Assembly (NCBI GenBank): GCA_016195025.1
Contig: JACQAL010000015.1
Span: forward strand, 1-64,000
Reading direction: 5' to 3'
Source of the DNA: Bacteroidota bacterium
Lineage (GTDB): Bacteria > Bacteroidota > Bacteroidia > Palsa-948
Length of the DNA: 64,000 bases
Each line of letters begins with the position of its first letter. The stretch's first letter is position 1. The notes beneath the pieces were generated by a model. The model was not told the DNA's origin. It did not search any database and worked only from the letters and a program-made list of their open reading frames with translations. Positions 55,842 to 63,975 of the stretch are shown here, one piece after another. Position numbers and translations under genes: made by a program.

Positions 55842-56162
55842 TTATTTTTGAAGGATTGGTTTGGGGGTTGCGATTCCGTTTTCGAGCACTTTTGGTCTTT
55901 TGTTTATTATTTTTTGGGCTTCTTCTTCACTGATGAAAAAAAAGTTTTCCAAGTTACCTCCCGCTGCGGGAATTACAGAAATAAAATTCGGGAAAAGAAG
56001 TTTGGAACGCTCATTCTTGAAATTACAGAGAGTAACTTCGGTGATGCCTGCGTCTTCAGCAATTTCTTTTTGGCTTTTAGAACTTGTACGGATTAAGTTG
56101 CGGAGTTTTTCTTCGTAATACTCTGCGCGTTCTTTTGCGGTGAGCAATTGGTGCGAATTCAT
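55842..56162 (-). CDS. Small helix-turn-helix protein (XRE-like)
   Basis: 106 residues from the second ATG (56162). An N-terminal helix with charged residues, then SQKEIAEDAGITEVTLCNFKNERS, which is the recognition helix region of an XRE-type HTH (about 28-52). The end IATPKPILQK is short and polar. Likely DNA binding and possibly regulator of the adjacent accessory gene. Not a full phage repressor, as the C-terminal half is only ~50 residues. Confidence 0.65.
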   Translation of the reverse strand: MNSHQLLTAKERAEYYEEKLRNLIRTSSKSQKEIAEDAGITEVTLCNFKNERSKLLFPNFISVIPAAGGNLENFFFISEEEAQKIINKRPKVLENGIATPKPILQK

Positions 56163-56486
56163 CATTCGCGAATATTAAATTCTCTTTTCAATAAAGCATT
56201 AAAGGGGGCTTTAATAAATGATATACCATCGGTAGTGGGGAATCCGAAAATGGGACAAGGGACATGGGGCAAGTGGCAAGGGAAATTCACCCGTCCCCTG
56301 TCCTCTGTTCCTTATCCCTCCGTTCGCAAACCTGATTTGTTTCAGAATAAAAAGAAAAGAAGGCAGCGAGGATGCTATGCTCAACGGGGGTTTTGGCTTG
56401 CAAAAAATATCTGCGCTTTTACGAAACCTTTTTTTTCCAACTGCGTAACATTGCGCGATTGCTTTCTTCTAACTAAAAATATTCTC
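56163..56486. other. Intergenic stretch before the fibre-like gene
   Basis: 324 bases without a gene I accept. An open frame exists in phase with the next gene, but it contains repeat words: GGGACAAGGGACATGGGGCA near 56252 and a C-rich CCCGTCCCCTGTCCTCTG near 56290. The signal peptide of the next gene begins only at 56487. Confidence 0.55.
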
Positions 56487-59168
56487 ATGAAAAAACTTTT
56501 CCTCTCCTCCGTAATTGCAATTACCATTCTGAGCGCAGCGCAGAATATTATTGCGCAGGGCACCTGGGTTGCCAGCGGAAACAACATAGTATACACTATG
56601 AGAAATGTGGGAATCAACACCGCCTCGCCCGCAGCCCCGCTCGATGTAAACGGTTTAATAAATTCGCTGAGCATGAAAGCGCAGAATGCGAACTTTGCAA
56701 CGGCAGTGGTAACAGGAAATTTTTCTGCTGGCAGTTTGAATGTGAGCGGCAATGCAGCGGTCAATGGTTCGTTGTCAGTAGCCAGCGGACAGTTTTCAGT
56801 TGGAAACATTTCGGTAAACGGCACTCCTGCAAACAGCAGCATCACTTCTTCATCTGGAATAATAAATTTTGCAAGCAATAATTTAACAACGGGCGGAACT
56901 ATTTCTTCCACGAATATTTCTTCGCTGCAAAATGAAGCCGATACGAACACCTCTCACATTTCCAATCTTCAATCAGCAATCAGCAATATTCATTCTTCGC
57001 AGTGGAGCAGCAATCCCGATGGCAGCATATCATTCAACGGAAATGTGTTTGTAAAAAACTTAGGAGTTGCCAATGCCGTTTCCATAGGAAGTTTCCGCTT
57101 CTCAAACGGCAGCAACCAGATTCAACCTATTATTACCGACAGCATCCGCACGCCTTATGCCATGGCGCTTTCTTCGGGAGGGCAGAAAATTTCTCTCAAT
57201 GCCGACAGTGTTTCAGTGGGAAACAGCGTGCGTGTAGATAACGGGCAACTGAATGTTGCGGGAAATATTTCCGCCAGCGGAAACATTTCTTCAGGCACTC
57301 TTACGGCAGGCAGCATTGTAACTTCGCAACTCACCATTGACACGCTTCACGCGCTCAGCCGCGTGGCAGTGAATCATTCGCTGCTGCTTACAAAAGCAAC
57401 AGCAAATAATTATGCCGAAGTTTCCACTACAAGCAGCAATGTGGATTTGGTATTGCAGGGCGATTCGGCAAAGAGAGTAGGCATTGGCACTACTTCTCCC
57501 ACTGAAAAACTTACGGTGCAGGGCAACGGAAAATTTTCGGGCAATGTTACCGCCAACTGCGTGAACGCAAACTGCCTTCACGTGGCAGGTCAAACGCAGT
57601 TTGACAGCGTGAAAGTGGGAAGTAAAATTCAGTTGGGAAATTCACTTAACATTTATGGCAGCGGCTCGTCTTCCGGTTTTTACAATATGCTTTTTACGGA
57701 TTTAAGCCAGTTCAGCAATCCTGACCCCAATCTTTATATTCAAAGCATACCAGGCACGCCACCCATAACGAGTTTGGGACCTGCTCCCTTCAACACAATT
57801 CTTAATTTTAACAGCGTGGGAAATGTGGGAATCGGAAAGGATAATCCGCAAGAGAAATTAGATGTGACAGGCAATGGAAAATTTTCAGGAACGATTGATG
57901 CCGCAAACTATTTAAAGAACGGCCAGCCGTTTGCAGGCGAATGGATAACTGCATCAAACGGAACAGATGTTTACAATACCAATTCCGGTCATGTAGGAAT
58001 CGGAACAAATAATCCGGTTCGTGAACTGCATGTTTATACCGAACATGTAATTCCCAATCCTCCACCCTGCCCGCCCAGTTGTTTTGCGGGCACGCATAAC
58101 GGAATGCGGCTGGAAGATAAAACCACCATTGGAAGCGCTCCTCCGGTAATTACCGCGTATGACATTGCTCCCATTAACGGAACACTATATATAAGTAAAG
58201 CCGATTTATCTGACCCTCATAAGATAGACGAGAAACTCGTAATCCAGTCAAATGGCTTTGTGGGAATCGGGCATGGCACACCGCAGGCGGAACTGGACGT
58301 AAAAGGCAGCGGGCTTTTTTCAGGCAATGTGGGAATAGGAACTACTACACCTCTTGCGAAATTAGATGTAAGAGGCGGTAATGCTCTTTTTTCTGGTAGT
58401 GTAGGAATAGGCATTACAAACCCGCAGGGCTGCATGAATGTGGTGTGCCCCATTCCCGTGGCGCAGGATGCCAAGCACCAGATTTTTACTGCGGAGAATG
58501 CGCAGGTGGGCTCGCCTTATTTTTCAGTGCTTAATGATGGAAGCGTGGAAGCAAGCGGTACAATTAATGCCGCAAATTATTTAAAGAACGGAAAATCTTT
58601 TGCAGGCGAATGGGTGACTGCTGCGAATGGAAAAGACATTTACAATACGAATAGTGGGAATGTAGGAATTGGAACAAGCGCTCCGCAAGCCCCCTTACAT
58701 ATCTATGGCTCCGGTGACCAGTTTATTGATATAAGTTCAAGCAGCGGTAGTTCTTACACTAGATTATTGGCAGTAACAAGCAATAGCAAAACAGAATCCC
58801 AGTTGCAATACAAAGGCACTTTTGGTATCTATGAACTTGGAGGAACTGTAAAATTATTTATCGATGGAAGCGGCAATGTTATTTGTGACCATCTTTTTAC
58901 CAAGGTGCTTGACGTTGCGCCCGATTATGTTTTTGAAAAAGAATACCCGCTCATGCCGCTCGAAGAAGTGGAAAAATATAAGGATAAGTTCAAGCACCTG
59001 CCCGATGTGCCCAGCGCAAAGGAATTTGAAAAGAATGGCATGAGTGTGGGAGATTTTTCCCTCGTGCTTTTAAAGAAAATAGAAGAACTTAGTTTATACA
59101 CAATAGAATTGCAAAAGCAGAATAAAGCAATGGAAGAAAGAATTGTAAAACTGGAGAAAGGAAAATAA
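56487..59168 (+). CDS. Fibre-like surface protein with repeated VGIGTxxP motifs
   Basis: 893 residues from the ATG at 56487, where the signal peptide starts (MKKLFLSSVIAITILSAAQ). Body: strand-rich S/N/G sequence with at least seven copies of NVGIGTxxPxxxLDVxGxGxFSG spread from ~30 to ~760, as in trimeric beta-helical fibres. The last ~85 residues are a helical/coiled-coil cap (VFEKEYPLMPLEEVEKY, HLPDVPSAKEFEKNG, LLKKIEELSLYTIELQ), the tail fibre-type end found in many Bacteroidota proteins. Probably surface-displayed, trimeric. Function unknown. A phrase of CAATCAGCAATCAGC words is in the coding part near 56960. Confidence 0.75.
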   Translation: MKKLFLSSVIAITILSAAQNIIAQGTWVASGNNIVYTMRNVGINTASPAAPLDVNGLINSLSMKAQNANFATAVVTGNFSAGSLNVSGNAAVNGSLSVASGQFSVGNISVNGTPANSSITSSSGIINFASNNLTTGGTISSTNISSLQNEADTNTSHISNLQSAISNIHSSQWSSNPDGSISFNGNVFVKNLGVANAVSIGSFRFSNGSNQIQPIITDSIRTPYAMALSSGGQKISLNADSVSVGNSVRVDNGQLNVAGNISASGNISSGTLTAGSIVTSQLTIDTLHALSRVAVNHSLLLTKATANNYAEVSTTSSNVDLVLQGDSAKRVGIGTTSPTEKLTVQGNGKFSGNVTANCVNANCLHVAGQTQFDSVKVGSKIQLGNSLNIYGSGSSSGFYNMLFTDLSQFSNPDPNLYIQSIPGTPPITSLGPAPFNTILNFNSVGNVGIGKDNPQEKLDVTGNGKFSGTIDAANYLKNGQPFAGEWITASNGTDVYNTNSGHVGIGTNNPVRELHVYTEHVIPNPPPCPPSCFAGTHNGMRLEDKTTIGSAPPVITAYDIAPINGTLYISKADLSDPHKIDEKLVIQSNGFVGIGHGTPQAELDVKGSGLFSGNVGIGTTTPLAKLDVRGGNALFSGSVGIGITNPQGCMNVVCPIPVAQDAKHQIFTAENAQVGSPYFSVLNDGSVEASGTINAANYLKNGKSFAGEWVTAANGKDIYNTNSGNVGIGTSAPQAPLHIYGSGDQFIDISSSSGSSYTRLLAVTSNSKTESQLQYKGTFGIYELGGTVKLFIDGSGNVICDHLFTKVLDVAPDYVFEKEYPLMPLEEVEKYKDKFKHLPDVPSAKEFEKNGMSVGDFSLVLLKKIEELSLYTIELQKQNKAMEERIVKLEKGK

Positions 59169-59171
59169 GTG

Positions 59172-59666
59172 ATGAGAAGAATTTTATTTATACTTCTTTT
59201 TTTATTTACCGCAAAAACTTTTTTTGCGCAGGATAGTTTATATTATAAAAATAATATAGTATATGCTGAAGGTTTGGGAAATGCAGGTTACGGAGTATAT
59301 TCTCTTAATTATGAAAGAAAAATTAAAGAAACAAATAATGGATTTATTACGCTGAGAGTTGGATTTGCCTATAATTATAATAAGAATTTATTTTTTCCTA
59401 TACTCATCAACAAAGTAAATAACAAACATAAAAAGAATCATTTTGAGTTTGGCGGAGGAATAACAACTACCTTATTTAAAAGTGCTTCTCTAGATTTAGC
59501 TTATACTGGCCCAACAGCAAATCTAATGTATAGATATCAGAAACCTAATGGAAAATTTATTTTCCGAGCAGGATGGACACCGGTATTATATCTTATAGAT
59601 TCAGATACGCTAATTACTATTTATTTTCTTTTATTTCCCGGAATAAGTTTCGGCTATGCATTTTAA
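59172..59666 (+). CDS. Small outer-membrane barrel-like protein
   Basis: 164 residues from the ATG at 59172. Signal peptide 1-19 (ends TFFAQ). Alternating aromatic/glycine strands (ITLRVGFAYNYN, HFEFGGGITTTLFKSASLDL, NLMYRYQKPNGKFIFRAGW) and an aromatic C-terminus (GISFGYAF). A 5-8 strand barrel is likely. It lies 3 bases after the fibre gene, so the two may function together. Confidence 0.7.
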   Translation: MRRILFILLFLFTAKTFFAQDSLYYKNNIVYAEGLGNAGYGVYSLNYERKIKETNNGFITLRVGFAYNYNKNLFFPILINKVNNKHKKNHFEFGGGITTTLFKSASLDLAYTGPTANLMYRYQKPNGKFIFRAGWTPVLYLIDSDTLITIYFLLFPGISFGYAF

Positions 59667-59681
59667 TTAAAAAGAACAACA

Positions 59682-61859
59682 ATGAAAATAAAAAAAATAA
59701 CAACAGCAATTTTTCTGAGTTGTATTTTTCTTTCAGATGTTTTTCTTTATGCGCAAGGCAATCAAATGAATCTTCAGAAATACTGGCATTACCGTTATCG
59801 CTTGAAAAATTATTTTATGGTGATGGGTGATGGTTCGGGAGAAAGTTTGCCGGCAACAATAAGAAATATTTATGGCATATCTTCTATGCAATGGTCAGAA
59901 ACCCCGCGCTACATGGGCTGGTATCTGGGAGTGCTTGCCACCGAATATAAACTGCTTGCCGATAACGGGCAAACTTCTCCCTCTGATTTAACCAATGAAT
60001 TGACAAAACAGGAATTATATTATGCACTCAAAGCAATAGAACGGATTGATATTCTTGCAGAGGTTGCTTATAAAAAACCCTATGACCCGGTTGCTAACCT
60101 TAATGGATTTTTAATTGAAGACGATGTAAGCCCTCTTTTTGTTCAGCAGCATATTAATGAATTGAATAAACCCATAGGCGTTAATCCCATAAGCACAACA
60201 TGGCTAAACGGCAGTGGCGAGCCAGCTTATGTAGATAAAAATACTTCGCTTTCTGTTTTAGCACAAAATCCTGCGAGTCAGGATATGATAGAAGAACTAT
60301 TCATTGGCTTTTCGCTTATCAGCAAATGTGTTCCAAATGTTTCCATGACTTTTCATGATAACAATGGTAATCTTATAAGCGATAATTTACATCAGAGAGC
60401 GCTTGATGAAATGGATAGAATATTAACTTATGTAGCCGCTTTTAATGATCCCCAGAAAAATACATGGACGATCTATGACCCCGATAATAATTATACTGGC
60501 AATGCTCAAGGGGGAGATTTGCGAGCATACTCACATGGTTTTGCCCATGCAGGTAATTTTATTTACTTGGGAAAAAATTATGAAGGAGGTGGGAGCGAAG
60601 GAGTGTTTGAGCCATTGTGGCAATCGGCACAAACTTTGGGTTGTACTGTACGGAACAATCAGAATGACCATATTGCGCTTGGCTTGGCGTCTATTTGCGA
60701 TTGCTGGAATGATTTCAACGCAAGTACTCCAAATCAAACCAAAGCAGGTATAAAGCGACAAGGAGATTATGATGCTCATTATTTTCTTGCAGAAGGGGGA
60801 GAACCATGCGATTGGGCTTCCAATCATTACGGTTTCGATTTATTTTACGGAGCATTACACCGGTTTTTGCATAACTACGATATAAGTGAAGACCCTGCTA
60901 TTTCTTTATGCGATATACAAACCATTTTAGATAATGCGCCATGGGATGGTCCGTATTCTCATTTTGAAACTGTAGAAGTGCCACCAAACTCAGGAAATTT
61001 TTTCTGCGTGCAGAGTACAAAAGATATTGCTCCTAATGGATGGGGAAGTAGTTTGCGTTTTTCAGTTGCCCCTACTCCTGGAAATGAGGCACAGATAAAT
61101 GGAGATTGTGGTTTCAGGGGCAACTACAATGGTCTTGACTATATGCTATTTCATAATTTATATTATTTGCTGAATGGAATGCCCGGGCAATTGGTGCATG
61201 GAATTTATCCCCTCCCGGGAGATGATTGTGACCCGGGCTCCGGCTCGCAGCCCCTCCCCTATGTTGTAAACACAGATAAATTTGTTTTTGTTAACGGCTT
61301 GCTTGAAAAACAACTTACTGAAACTTGCAGCGGAGGTGGCTATGCAACTTATCATGGCGATGTGCGGATTTTTGGCGGGCAAAGAGGAGTCACGGTAATG
61401 AACACATATGTTGAGTATGGTTCTCATTTCCACATAAGCATTGACCCCAATAATTGCGGAGTTAATCCTGATATTTACGTTTTTGACCCATCCGCTTATC
61501 AACGCGTTAATCAAAACCAAAATAACAATAACAACAGCACGCTTCCTCCCTATACAATGTCAGAGGAATTCAAAAAAACATCAATCATTCCGGCAGTATT
61601 AATTTCACCAAATCCCAACCATGGCTTCTTTACTGTGCAATTGCTGCAAGATGCTGCGCAAGCGCAAGGCGCAAAAGATCGTTCGGCTTCACTCACTGCA
61701 AGCATTACCATTTACAATGACATGGTGCAGGAAATTTATAAATCGGCAATCAGCAGTAATCAATCATCAATTGATTTATCTTCCCAGCCCAAAGGAATTT
61801 ATTTTGTGAAGGTGCAGAGCGCGAGCAAGATTTATACTGAAAAAGTGGTGATACAGTAA
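59682..61859 (+). CDS. Large secreted protein with T9SS sorting domain
   Basis: 725 residues, ATG start. Signal peptide about 1-25 (ends FLYAQ). The ~600-residue body has no domain I recognise; it contains several Trp/Gly-rich segments (SHGFAHAGNFIYLGKN, EGGEPCDWASNHYGFDLFYG) and paired Cys. The T9SS type A end reads AVLISPNPNHGFFTV, ITIYNDMVQEIY, IDLSSQPKGIYFVKV and YTEKVVIQ. The loop before IDLSS (SAISSNQSS) comes from an AATCAGCAGTAATCAATCATC word. Followed by two repeat units that each contain another copy of a sorting-domain tail. Confidence 0.78.
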   Translation: MKIKKITTAIFLSCIFLSDVFLYAQGNQMNLQKYWHYRYRLKNYFMVMGDGSGESLPATIRNIYGISSMQWSETPRYMGWYLGVLATEYKLLADNGQTSPSDLTNELTKQELYYALKAIERIDILAEVAYKKPYDPVANLNGFLIEDDVSPLFVQQHINELNKPIGVNPISTTWLNGSGEPAYVDKNTSLSVLAQNPASQDMIEELFIGFSLISKCVPNVSMTFHDNNGNLISDNLHQRALDEMDRILTYVAAFNDPQKNTWTIYDPDNNYTGNAQGGDLRAYSHGFAHAGNFIYLGKNYEGGGSEGVFEPLWQSAQTLGCTVRNNQNDHIALGLASICDCWNDFNASTPNQTKAGIKRQGDYDAHYFLAEGGEPCDWASNHYGFDLFYGALHRFLHNYDISEDPAISLCDIQTILDNAPWDGPYSHFETVEVPPNSGNFFCVQSTKDIAPNGWGSSLRFSVAPTPGNEAQINGDCGFRGNYNGLDYMLFHNLYYLLNGMPGQLVHGIYPLPGDDCDPGSGSQPLPYVVNTDKFVFVNGLLEKQLTETCSGGGYATYHGDVRIFGGQRGVTVMNTYVEYGSHFHISIDPNNCGVNPDIYVFDPSAYQRVNQNQNNNNNSTLPPYTMSEEFKKTSIIPAVLISPNPNHGFFTVQLLQDAAQAQGAKDRSASLTASITIYNDMVQEIYKSAISSNQSSIDLSSQPKGIYFVKVQSASKIYTEKVVIQ
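61741..61772. repeat. AATCAGC word repeat in the T9SS loop
   Basis: AATCGGCAATCAGCAGTAAT followed by CAATCATC. It encodes the variable loop of the sorting domain and resembles the CAATCAGCAATCAGC word near 56960. Confidence 0.5.
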
Positions 61860-62052
61860 CTCACCCTGTCCTTCTGACATCCCTCTCTTTGTAAAGAGAG
61901 GGAAAGAGGGAGAGTTTGTTTGAAGGTTTTTACGGAGAAGGTGGTAATTCAGTAACTCACCCTGTCCTTCGGACATCCCTCTCTTTTTGAAAGAGAGGGA
62001 AAGAGGGAGAGTTTGTTTGAAGGTTTTTACGGAGAAGGTGGTAATACAATAG
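61860..62052. repeat. Two 96-97-bp direct repeats with hairpins and copied T9SS tails
   Basis: Unit A 61860-61955 and unit B 61956-62052 are almost identical. Each holds a perfect hairpin (CCCTCTCTTT-gt-AAAGAGAGGG in A) and ends with AAGGTTTTTACGGAGAAGG plus a TGGTAAT... stretch that reads KVFTEKVVIQ or KVFTEKVVIQ-like in the gene's own frame, then a stop. The preceding gene ends KIYTEKVVIQ, using different codons. Confidence 0.8.
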
Positions 62053-62099
62053 CAAACCCGCACTCAGTAATCAGCGCCTGCTGCTTTCCCCAACTTTCT

Positions 62100-62107
62100 T
62101 ACCTTAG
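62100..62107 (+). promoter_or_regulatory. Possible -7 box of the last T9SS gene
   Basis: TACCTTAG, one mismatch to TAnnTTTG, 14 bases before the ATG at 62122. Confidence 0.35.
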
Positions 62108-62121
62108 CAAAAAGTTATTGC

Positions 62122-63975
62122 ATGAAAAAATTCTTCCCGCTCTTCTTCTTCATCGCCTTCACGCAATTGTTCGCACAAAAAACAATCAGGCATGCCGATG
62201 GCTCGTACTTCAAACAATGCAGCCATTTTGAAATTACAAAACCGCTTTGGCAGTTGGCGAAAGAAAATCCGGCAGCAGAAAAAACAGGAGCGCATGGCGA
62301 AGCGGCAGACCGCAAAAGAAAATTTGCGCGCGTGTTTTCTCCGCCTTCTGTAACAACTTCCGCAGACCCGGTGGTGCAAAAAACAGAAGGCAATGTTTCC
62401 ACCCATGGCGCCATTGAAAACTTTGACGGCACTTACAGCGCTGACGGATGGTATCCGCTTGACCCAACGGGAATGGCGGGACCCAATCATTTTGTGCAAT
62501 GCGTGAATTCAAATTACCAGGTGTTCGGCAAAACAGGCGTGCCCGTTACCGCCATCATTGATTTAGCCACGCTCTTTCCGAATTCAACTGACGATGGCGA
62601 CCCGATTGTGATGTATGATAAGTTTGCCGACCGCTGGTTTATTTCCGAGTTCCAGTCGGTGCCTCCTGTTTCCGGCAACGAAGTCCAGATGCTGATAGCA
62701 GTTTCCGCCACCAACGACCCTGCGGGAAGTTATTATCTCTACACGTTTGAACCCGATTCAGCCGATTATATTGATTACCCCAAGTTTTCCATCTGGGCGG
62801 ACGGATATTACGAAACCTGCAACTGCGATTTTCAGAAAGTAACCGTGTATGACCGAACCAAAATGCTTGCGGGCGATACCACTGCCGGCTTCATCGTGAT
62901 TCCTTCGGTGAATCCCAACCCGAATGGTTTTTGGTGCCCGCAAACATTATTTGCCGATGGGCAACTTCCCCCTTACGGCTCGCCCGAATATTTATTTTAT
63001 TACACCGATGATAACTGGGGCGCTCCCTACCAAGACATGATTTATATTTATAAAGTAACCGCCAACTGGAGCACCAAAACCGGAACGCTCGCTGCGGATG
63101 ATTCGCTCGCCACGCAGCCGTTCAATTCTTATTTCACCGGGGGAACCCTGCAGGATATTGCGCAGCCGGGCACCACTATTAAATTAGATGCGCTCGATGG
63201 ATTTTTCGCGTACCGCATTCCGTACGTGCGGTGGAGCACTTACAATTCCGCAGTGATGAGTTACCCGGTGAATACGGGAAACAAAGTGGCGGGCATACGC
63301 TGGTATGAATTGCGGCAGGACAGCGCCACCAATAAATGGAGCATTGCACAGCAGAGTACCTACGCGCCTGCCGATACGGTGAGCCGCTGGAATGCGGGAA
63401 TAGGAATGGACATGAACGGAAACATAGGGCTGGCGTTTAATGTTGCTTCAGCGAAATCGGTTTTTCCGGGCATCCGCTACACGGGAAGAAATGCCTGCGA
63501 TAGTTTGGGCACCATGACGCTTGCCGAAAGCACGCCCGTTACCGGCTCTTCTAACTGGACGGATAACCGCTGGGGCGACTACTCGCATATTTCACTCGAC
63601 CCCACCGATGGAATTACTTTCTGGCATACGAACCAATACATAGGAACAGCGCATTCGCTGAACACGCGGATTTTTTCTTTCCAGATTCCTCTTTGCAGTT
63701 CAGGAGTGCCGTCTCTTTCCTCTGCTCCTGCAGAACTGCACGCGTTTCAATCTGGAAATATGCTGTACATAAAAGCAACAGGATTAACTTCGGAAAAAAA
63801 CTTTGAAGTCGGGTTGTACACGCTGGAAGGAAAACTCATCAGCCGCCAATTAGTTTCTCCCGTTGCGGGAACGCTTGAAACCGCTATGAACATTTTCGGA
63901 TTCGCGCGGGGAATTTATTTAGTGAGAATCATCAGCGACAATTTTCAACGAACCGTAAAAGTGAGTGTGGAGTAG
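62122..63975 (+). CDS. Secreted protein with degenerate T9SS sorting domain
   Basis: 617 residues, ATG start. Signal peptide about 1-19 (MKKFFPLFFFIAFTQLFAQ). The ~500-residue body includes DPTGMAGPNHFVQCVNSNYQ, VMYDKFADRWFISEFQS and YTRNACDSLGT-like segments, suggesting a beta-propeller or sialidase-like lectin fold, but I cannot name the family. C-terminal ~75 residues: a sorting-domain-like end, YTLEGKLISRQLVS, ARGIYLVRIISDNFQRTVKV. The usual YPNP is absent, so recognition by the T9SS is less certain. No repeat words in its loop. Confidence 0.72.
   Translation: MKKFFPLFFFIAFTQLFAQKTIRHADGSYFKQCSHFEITKPLWQLAKENPAAEKTGAHGEAADRKRKFARVFSPPSVTTSADPVVQKTEGNVSTHGAIENFDGTYSADGWYPLDPTGMAGPNHFVQCVNSNYQVFGKTGVPVTAIIDLATLFPNSTDDGDPIVMYDKFADRWFISEFQSVPPVSGNEVQMLIAVSATNDPAGSYYLYTFEPDSADYIDYPKFSIWADGYYETCNCDFQKVTVYDRTKMLAGDTTAGFIVIPSVNPNPNGFWCPQTLFADGQLPPYGSPEYLFYYTDDNWGAPYQDMIYIYKVTANWSTKTGTLAADDSLATQPFNSYFTGGTLQDIAQPGTTIKLDALDGFFAYRIPYVRWSTYNSAVMSYPVNTGNKVAGIRWYELRQDSATNKWSIAQQSTYAPADTVSRWNAGIGMDMNGNIGLAFNVASAKSVFPGIRYTGRNACDSLGTMTLAESTPVTGSSNWTDNRWGDYSHISLDPTDGITFWHTNQYIGTAHSLNTRIFSFQIPLCSSGVPSLSSAPAELHAFQSGNMLYIKATGLTSEKNFEVGLYTLEGKLISRQLVSPVAGTLETAMNIFGFARGIYLVRIISDNFQRTVKVSVE

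Follow-up and report, generated by a model that had tools for sequence, protein, structure and literature searches.

Hairpin-linked copies of a sorting-domain end behind the stop codon of a T9SS secreted-protein gene in a Bacteroidota bacterium

Rhs and CdiA genes carry displaced, orphan C-terminal modules, in which a new C-terminal end stands before an older one behind the stop. Compared to these modules, the piece that would have moved in the locus described here is an export signal of roughly 75–200 nt flanked by palindromes and not a toxin module. Short palindromes dispersed beside or inside genes are known as REP, including GTAG- and CGTC-tagged forms, and ORFs next to GTAG REPs often take their stop codon from the REP terminus, according to excerpts of PMC3733652. 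The palindrome of our locus, referred to as hairpin (i), is likewise short, dispersed and found beside or inside genes, and its AACTC supplies a stop as the GTAG termini do. Unlike REP, which these excerpts present as a single hairpin of 20–40 bp, hairpin (i) is Y-shaped with a length of 60 nt and carries a sorting-tail segment (PMC3733652).

The locus lies in a window of 64,000 nt, which is the whole stretch of DNA analysed and corresponds to C15:1-64000; labels of this kind denote contigs of the own draft genome of the bacterium (3.5 Mb, 79 contigs). Rickettsia palindromic elements, as characterised in parts of PMC10969869 and PMC3733652, are inserted in frame in protein genes. A similar situation was observed at C37:4803-4862, where a T9SS gene of 446 aa (MKKVLRFLLK...ALSILFIAVCGGANAQ) contains hairpin (i) in frame in its signal-peptide region; this is a resemblance, not membership. 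At C54 and C76, a second, different palindrome (CATCCCCCTTATTCCCCCTTCAAAAAGGGGGACAG) lies inside the sorting domain, in frame and immediately ahead of TEKVVIQ/E, again like the Rickettsia elements; it is also found at C42. Hairpin (i) differs from the Rickettsia elements covered by the same excerpts in its sequence, its smaller size and its preference for T9SS gene ends. The units of the window share with BIMEs (REP clusters) the combination of hairpins with a conserved spacer, which is tail DNA in our case. Measured against the portions of PMC2817692 and PMC3733652 that deal with BIMEs, the spacer is a former coding end and the units are arranged head-to-tail instead of alternating.

The ends of hairpin (i) are AACTC/GAGTT, with variants such as ACCTC/GAGGT. 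Neither GTAG nor CGTC was found at an end, and copies with GTC have it internally. The own genome harbours three Y1_Tnp genes, none of which has a hairpin (i) core within 1.5 kb; a RAYT origin of hairpin (i) was rejected on this ground. Hairpin (i) resembles REP/RPE-type palindromes in its behaviour at and within genes, but since neither GTAG or CGTC ends nor RAYT linkage was found in these comparisons, it was not assigned to that type; the hairpin-tail units are a variant of REP/RPE-like biology. In a comparison with MITE criteria, in which Y1_Tnp was the only transposase class searched, a T was found before hairpin (i) and often an A after it, while no empty site was found. Domain and allelic exchange of P. 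gingivalis surface proteins, and not a post-stop tail arrangement, is the subject of the part of PMC5266723 that was consulted. In the open literature searched, neither sorting tails behind the stop of T9SS genes nor hairpins at the ends of such genes were described.

According to the ORF list, the 725-aa ORF closes with KIYTEKVVIQ-TAA at 61859. Its protein scores 38.8 bits against TIGR04183 (residues 641–725, cut-off 23) and 42 bits against PF18962 (cut-off 27), both above the cut-off. A sequence-only reading of the window had described two units of about 96 bp after the stop of this gene, each composed of a hairpin, a KVFTEKVVIQ-like stretch and a stop, with DNA differing from the KIYTEKVVIQ end of the gene itself. 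This description was accurate: the units measure 96 and 97 bp, the repeat search found direct repeats of 75 nt at 91% and 69 nt at 86%, both tails read KVFTEKVVIQ-stop, and 7 of 33 bases (unit 1) and 8 of 33 bases (unit 2) differ from the gene's own tail. The coordinates are summarised in Table 1.

Table 1. Position of the gene, its end and the two hairpin-tail units in the window, and of further joints in the own genome
Feature	Position	Strand	Remarks
T9SS type A secreted-protein gene, 725 aa	59682..61859	+	ORF, TIGR04183, PF18962
A-type end cassette (last 75 nt of the sorting domain)	61785..61859	+	common to unrelated genes
KIYTEKVVIQ, the gene's own last 10 codons and stop	61827..61859	+	
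Hairpin (i) copy 1, Y-shaped palindrome	61858..61916	+	R1 match 82 bits; z = -3.31
Unit 1, hairpin and extra tail, 96 bp	61860..61955	+	ends TAA
Extra tail 1, KVFTEKVVIQ-TAA, B-type	61923..61955	+	31/33 with C48:53009 end
Hairpin (i) copy 2, Y-shaped palindrome	61954..62013	+	R1 match 91.3 bits, best of the genome; z = -3.42
Unit 2, hairpin and extra tail, 97 bp	61956..62052	+	ends TAG
Extra tail 2, KVFTEKVVIQ-TAG, B-type	62020..62052	+	30/33 with C48:53009 end
Hairpin-to-tail joints elsewhere	C26:6.5k, C13:20.0k, C42:53.4k, C53:29.4k, C71:3.6k, C18:3.0k, C60:337-400		

The initial AA of the first hairpin copy forms the final two bases of the gene's TAA. Hairpin patterns occur in the window at these two places only, with none expected from 100 shuffles. 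The hairpin parts alone fold better than shuffled sequences (z = -3.3 and -3.4), whereas unit 1 including its tail folds less strikingly (z = -1.75, 13 of 200 shuffles equally good). A search of 61500–62400 against Rfam yielded nothing above the gathering threshold, only two sub-threshold snoRNA matches. The extra tails comprise the last 10 codons only and stand behind stops; no open frame there encodes a complete T9SS type A sorting domain. The gene and the tail of unit 1 are in one frame, but a TGA within the hairpin adds a second stop between them; the tail of unit 2 is shifted by one base. By ordinary translation, the extra tails would not become part of the gene product.

The gene's own end matches other genes of the genome more closely than the paralog at C48. 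Its last 33 bases are identical to those at C26, C60 and C16 (33/33) and nearly so to those at C13 (32/33). Over the last 75 nt, 73 positions agree with each of these four places, compared to 64 of 75 with C48, and the informative sites favour C60 and likewise C26 over C48 by 9:0, and C13 and C16 by 10:1. The sorting domain at C48 is nevertheless the nearest to that of the 725-aa gene in the own genome (69% amino acid identity over residues 630–725), with 82% DNA identity over a stretch of 151 nt that precedes the last 96 nt. The identity to C60 is 97.4% over the last 76 nt, and similarity is absent upstream. At E ≤ 1e-10, the C26 protein aligns to the 725-aa protein only in residues 630–725 and the C60 protein does not match it at all. 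Judged from these alignments, the gene ends in a mosaic, in which a C48-like domain is followed by an A-type cassette also present in unrelated genes. No clear ortholog of the 725-aa protein by which the insertion could be dated was found: 11 of the 40 genomes searched, including the own genome, match at E ≤ 1e-10, and the matches in other genomes are partial with 32–62% identity.

For the extra tails, the donor end proposed in the sequence-only reading was looked for in the genome, and a close donor-type end was found at C48:53009, a CTD gene of 584 aa. The tails share 31/33 and 30/33 bases with this end, compared to 26/33 and 25/33 with the gene's own tail. Among seven complete hairpin-linked tails, six of the nine variable sense-codon sites are in third position (hypergeometric P = 0.018), which is a modest bias across related tails, and the stop is kept in all of them as TAA, TAG or TGA. 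A comparable pattern was observed at C78, where two genes carry another tail family (LQTSKGSVG.KKM) on either side of hairpin (i), which has the opposite orientation there. The paired tails of each gene match at 44/54 positions in both cases, and of the 19 sense-codon differences, counted by hand, 13 are in third position and none is in second. Drift of tails that had been copied a single time into non-coding DNA would not leave a third-position bias and kept stops; the extra tails resemble gene ends that worked for most of their history.

In hairpin (i), AACTC...GAGTT surrounds two stems, a small one (GTCC..GGAC) and a long one (CCCTCTC..GAGAGGG). A covariance model gave 96 matches in the own genome, corresponding to about 55 places after merging by hand, and matches in 25 of the 60 genomes searched, the own genome included. 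The covariation set comprised 54 matches from several genomes, which were fitted to the model and include both strands of some copies. In this set, 14 of 18 pairs changed on both sides, 97.7% of the cells pair, and 95 two-sided changes stand against 4 one-sided ones, a result reached by none of 500 shuffles. Since few changes are one-sided (G-U), a DNA palindrome would fit better than an RNA. Chloroflexi, Cyanobacteria, Saganbacteria and Bacteroidetes together supplied 14 stretches with an exact copy of the core, indicating that the palindrome belongs to a wide family whose origin is not here; viral contigs gave no match to the core.

At several places, hairpin (i) provides the TAA of the preceding gene. 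Five of the 55 hairpin places begin between -4 and +10 relative to a CTD stop (150 stops considered), compared to 0.035 expected under uniform placement, an expectation that is too low because palindromes favour intergenic gaps. At C57:4175-4235, a 296-aa ORF without NCBIfam match ends in VVIQ with B-type bases GTGGTAATTCAGTAA and is directly followed by the hairpin, as if part of a tail had taken the place of the ORF's end. Two T9SS genes at C26 (10.7 kb and 16.9 kb) share the same last 45 bases and have an identical hairpin behind the stop.

The region with the units yielded 58 matches in the own genome at E ≤ 10, and a scan with the tail pattern found 18 places, with none in the reversed-pattern control. 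The joint itself, GAGAGTTT[G/C]TTTGAA[A/G]GTTTTT, is present at two places in the window and seven elsewhere in the own genome. The sequence-only reading would have been contradicted by the lack of any other locus with a matching tail and hairpin, but the joint recurs at C26, C13, C42, C53, C71, C18 and C60:337-400. A complete tail with stop is present in seven of the nine joints. The joint at C71 is cut after GTTTTT, and that at C13 is interrupted by what appears, read by eye, to be another small palindrome (CCGATGAATATCGG). At C60:24.5k (24540), the hairpin is present and cut at GTTTG before the tail. An intact sorting-domain gene in front is missing at C53, C71, C18 and C60:337.

Close upstream of the joint at C18, we observed a remnant of the N-terminal part of the 725-aa gene as well as a homolog of the 165-aa gene of the window (59169-59666), in changed order. 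A repeat, DLFQ[N/Y]K[K/E], is found near the 5' part of the long ORF 56148-59168 of the window and again at C18, C60 and C4, where it is fused to half of hairpin (i).

Of 100 genomes searched, including 6 others of the same genus, only the own genome matched the unit DNA. From its absence in the 99 other genomes, the unit looks like a recent feature of the own lineage. A tail-spacer-tail pattern with VVIQ/VIIQ tails, which is narrow and misses other tail families, was found in 1 of 395 genomes, namely the own genome, at C15 and C26.

A census of CTD genes, which is incomplete with 150 of 408 candidate places scored, revealed second ends behind C15, C26, C32:18762 and C17:58750. The second end at C32:18762 is a fragment of 33 codons (LSSQPKGIYFVKL...KVYTEKVVIE), and that at C17:58750 reads NSGFKKLVVVK and is followed by hairpin (i). 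Most of the 150 genes lack a second end, so that the rate is low. The strict tail pattern was found downstream of 3/150 genes, compared to 1/150 on the reverse strand and none in five shuffles. Two looser patterns did not exceed the control (5/150 and 1/150 downstream, 6/150 and 3/150 on the reverse strand). Weak blastn tail matches in downstream DNA, for example at C55, C58, C62 and C60:76744, were dropped, as they proved not to be tails on inspection.

The cases at C13, C16, C42 and C78 stem from DNA searches outside this census. The 443-aa gene at C42 belongs to type B by its sorting domain (TIGR04131, 57 bits); behind it come a type A fragment that stays open for 63 codons, hairpin (i) and then KVFTEKVLVE. 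At C16, CTD fragments lie behind a 282-aa ORF. Sharing of the last 96 nt at E ≤ 1e-8 extends to 266 pairs of CTD genes. Among 361 comparable CTD pairs, 16 use the same codon for at least 90% of their identical residues, some of these being neighbours and plain paralogs.

We consider it probable that recombination among the 3' ends of T9SS sorting-domain genes left the two units behind as relics, the palindrome serving as boundary and probably also as homology handle. Recombination between sorting-domain ends and a hairpin repeat had already been offered as one explanation in the sequence-only reading, along with an origin of the tails from another gene end instead of simple slippage; both proposals gain support from the mosaic ends, the match to C48 and the coding-type divergence of the tails. 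A B-type tail (KV[F/Y]TEKVVIQ), once the end of a related gene, would have become joined to the palindrome, and the hairpin-plus-tail joint would then have been copied to several places. The end of the sorting domain of the 725-aa gene would have been replaced by the A-type cassette, as in C26, C60, C13 and C16. With the cassette having taken over the gene end, the older hairpin-linked tails would now lie behind the stop and not in the protein. The tandem units may reflect a second integration or an unequal exchange via the shared tail or hairpin. Under this order of events, the B-type tails may be what the 725-aa gene carried formerly. All complete hairpin-linked tails read KVF, while in tails not located behind this hairpin KVY or KIY is found, or a different hairpin takes that position. 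Hence, the joint may go back to a single event and have travelled in one piece, which would make a displacement of each gene's own old tail unnecessary.

The main rival to recombination among gene ends is that hairpin and tail constitute a small non-autonomous mobile element served by a transposase in trans, with AACTC just inside the stop as left end and a captured T9SS tail as right end. We regard this as unlikely, although an identical joint at nine places, four of them away from intact sorting-domain genes, together with the common KVF reading of the complete hairpin-linked tails, is what such an element would leave. The units adjoin the TAA exactly at C15, C26, C13 and C42, but other left joints pass through CCTGCC...GGCAGG (C53, C71, C60:24540), and the right ends are ragged, stopping in GTTTG at C60:24540 and in GTTTTT at C71 and being interrupted at C13. 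The three Y1_Tnp genes provide candidates for the transposase, yet their loci, taken with 1.5 kb on each side, are free of the CCCTCTC/GAGAGGG core. The almost exclusively two-sided change of the hairpin pairs is as expected for a DNA palindrome, whereas stop-preserving third-position variation is unexpected of non-coding cargo.

Local slippage or target duplication is disfavoured and in our judgement very improbable. Arrival of the palindrome at the stop would have been followed by a duplication of the tail of the gene beyond it and by drift; tail, hairpin and tail in this order are also seen twice at C78, where the hairpin has the opposite orientation. The extra tails are nevertheless nearer to C48 than to the tail of their own gene, and the differences between tails are of the coding kind. 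We give equally little credence to a present function, with the hairpin ending or protecting the transcript, or with the tails serving as spare sorting signals by read-through or as donors for gene-end repair. Hairpins at T9SS stops do exceed chance and their structure is maintained by paired changes, but no intrinsic terminator-like or promoter-like site was found in 61700–62200, and read-through would have to pass two stops to reach the tail of unit 1 and would meet that of unit 2 out of phase.

Genomes with more than 100 T9SS genes must keep the sorting signal on unrelated proteins or spread it over them. Stacked ends behind stops would be direct footprints of the copying of this signal between genes, and the boundaries of the exchange would be identified as dispersed palindromes. 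It appears doubtful that tail-swapping is active, with hairpins at T9SS stops marking and promoting the exchange of the last 75–200 nt. If true, proteins could thereby acquire, mend or alter their export signal, and the displaced tails would be a record of the swaps. Short tail-like ORFs behind T9SS genes would also call for caution in annotation, as debris and not as genes.
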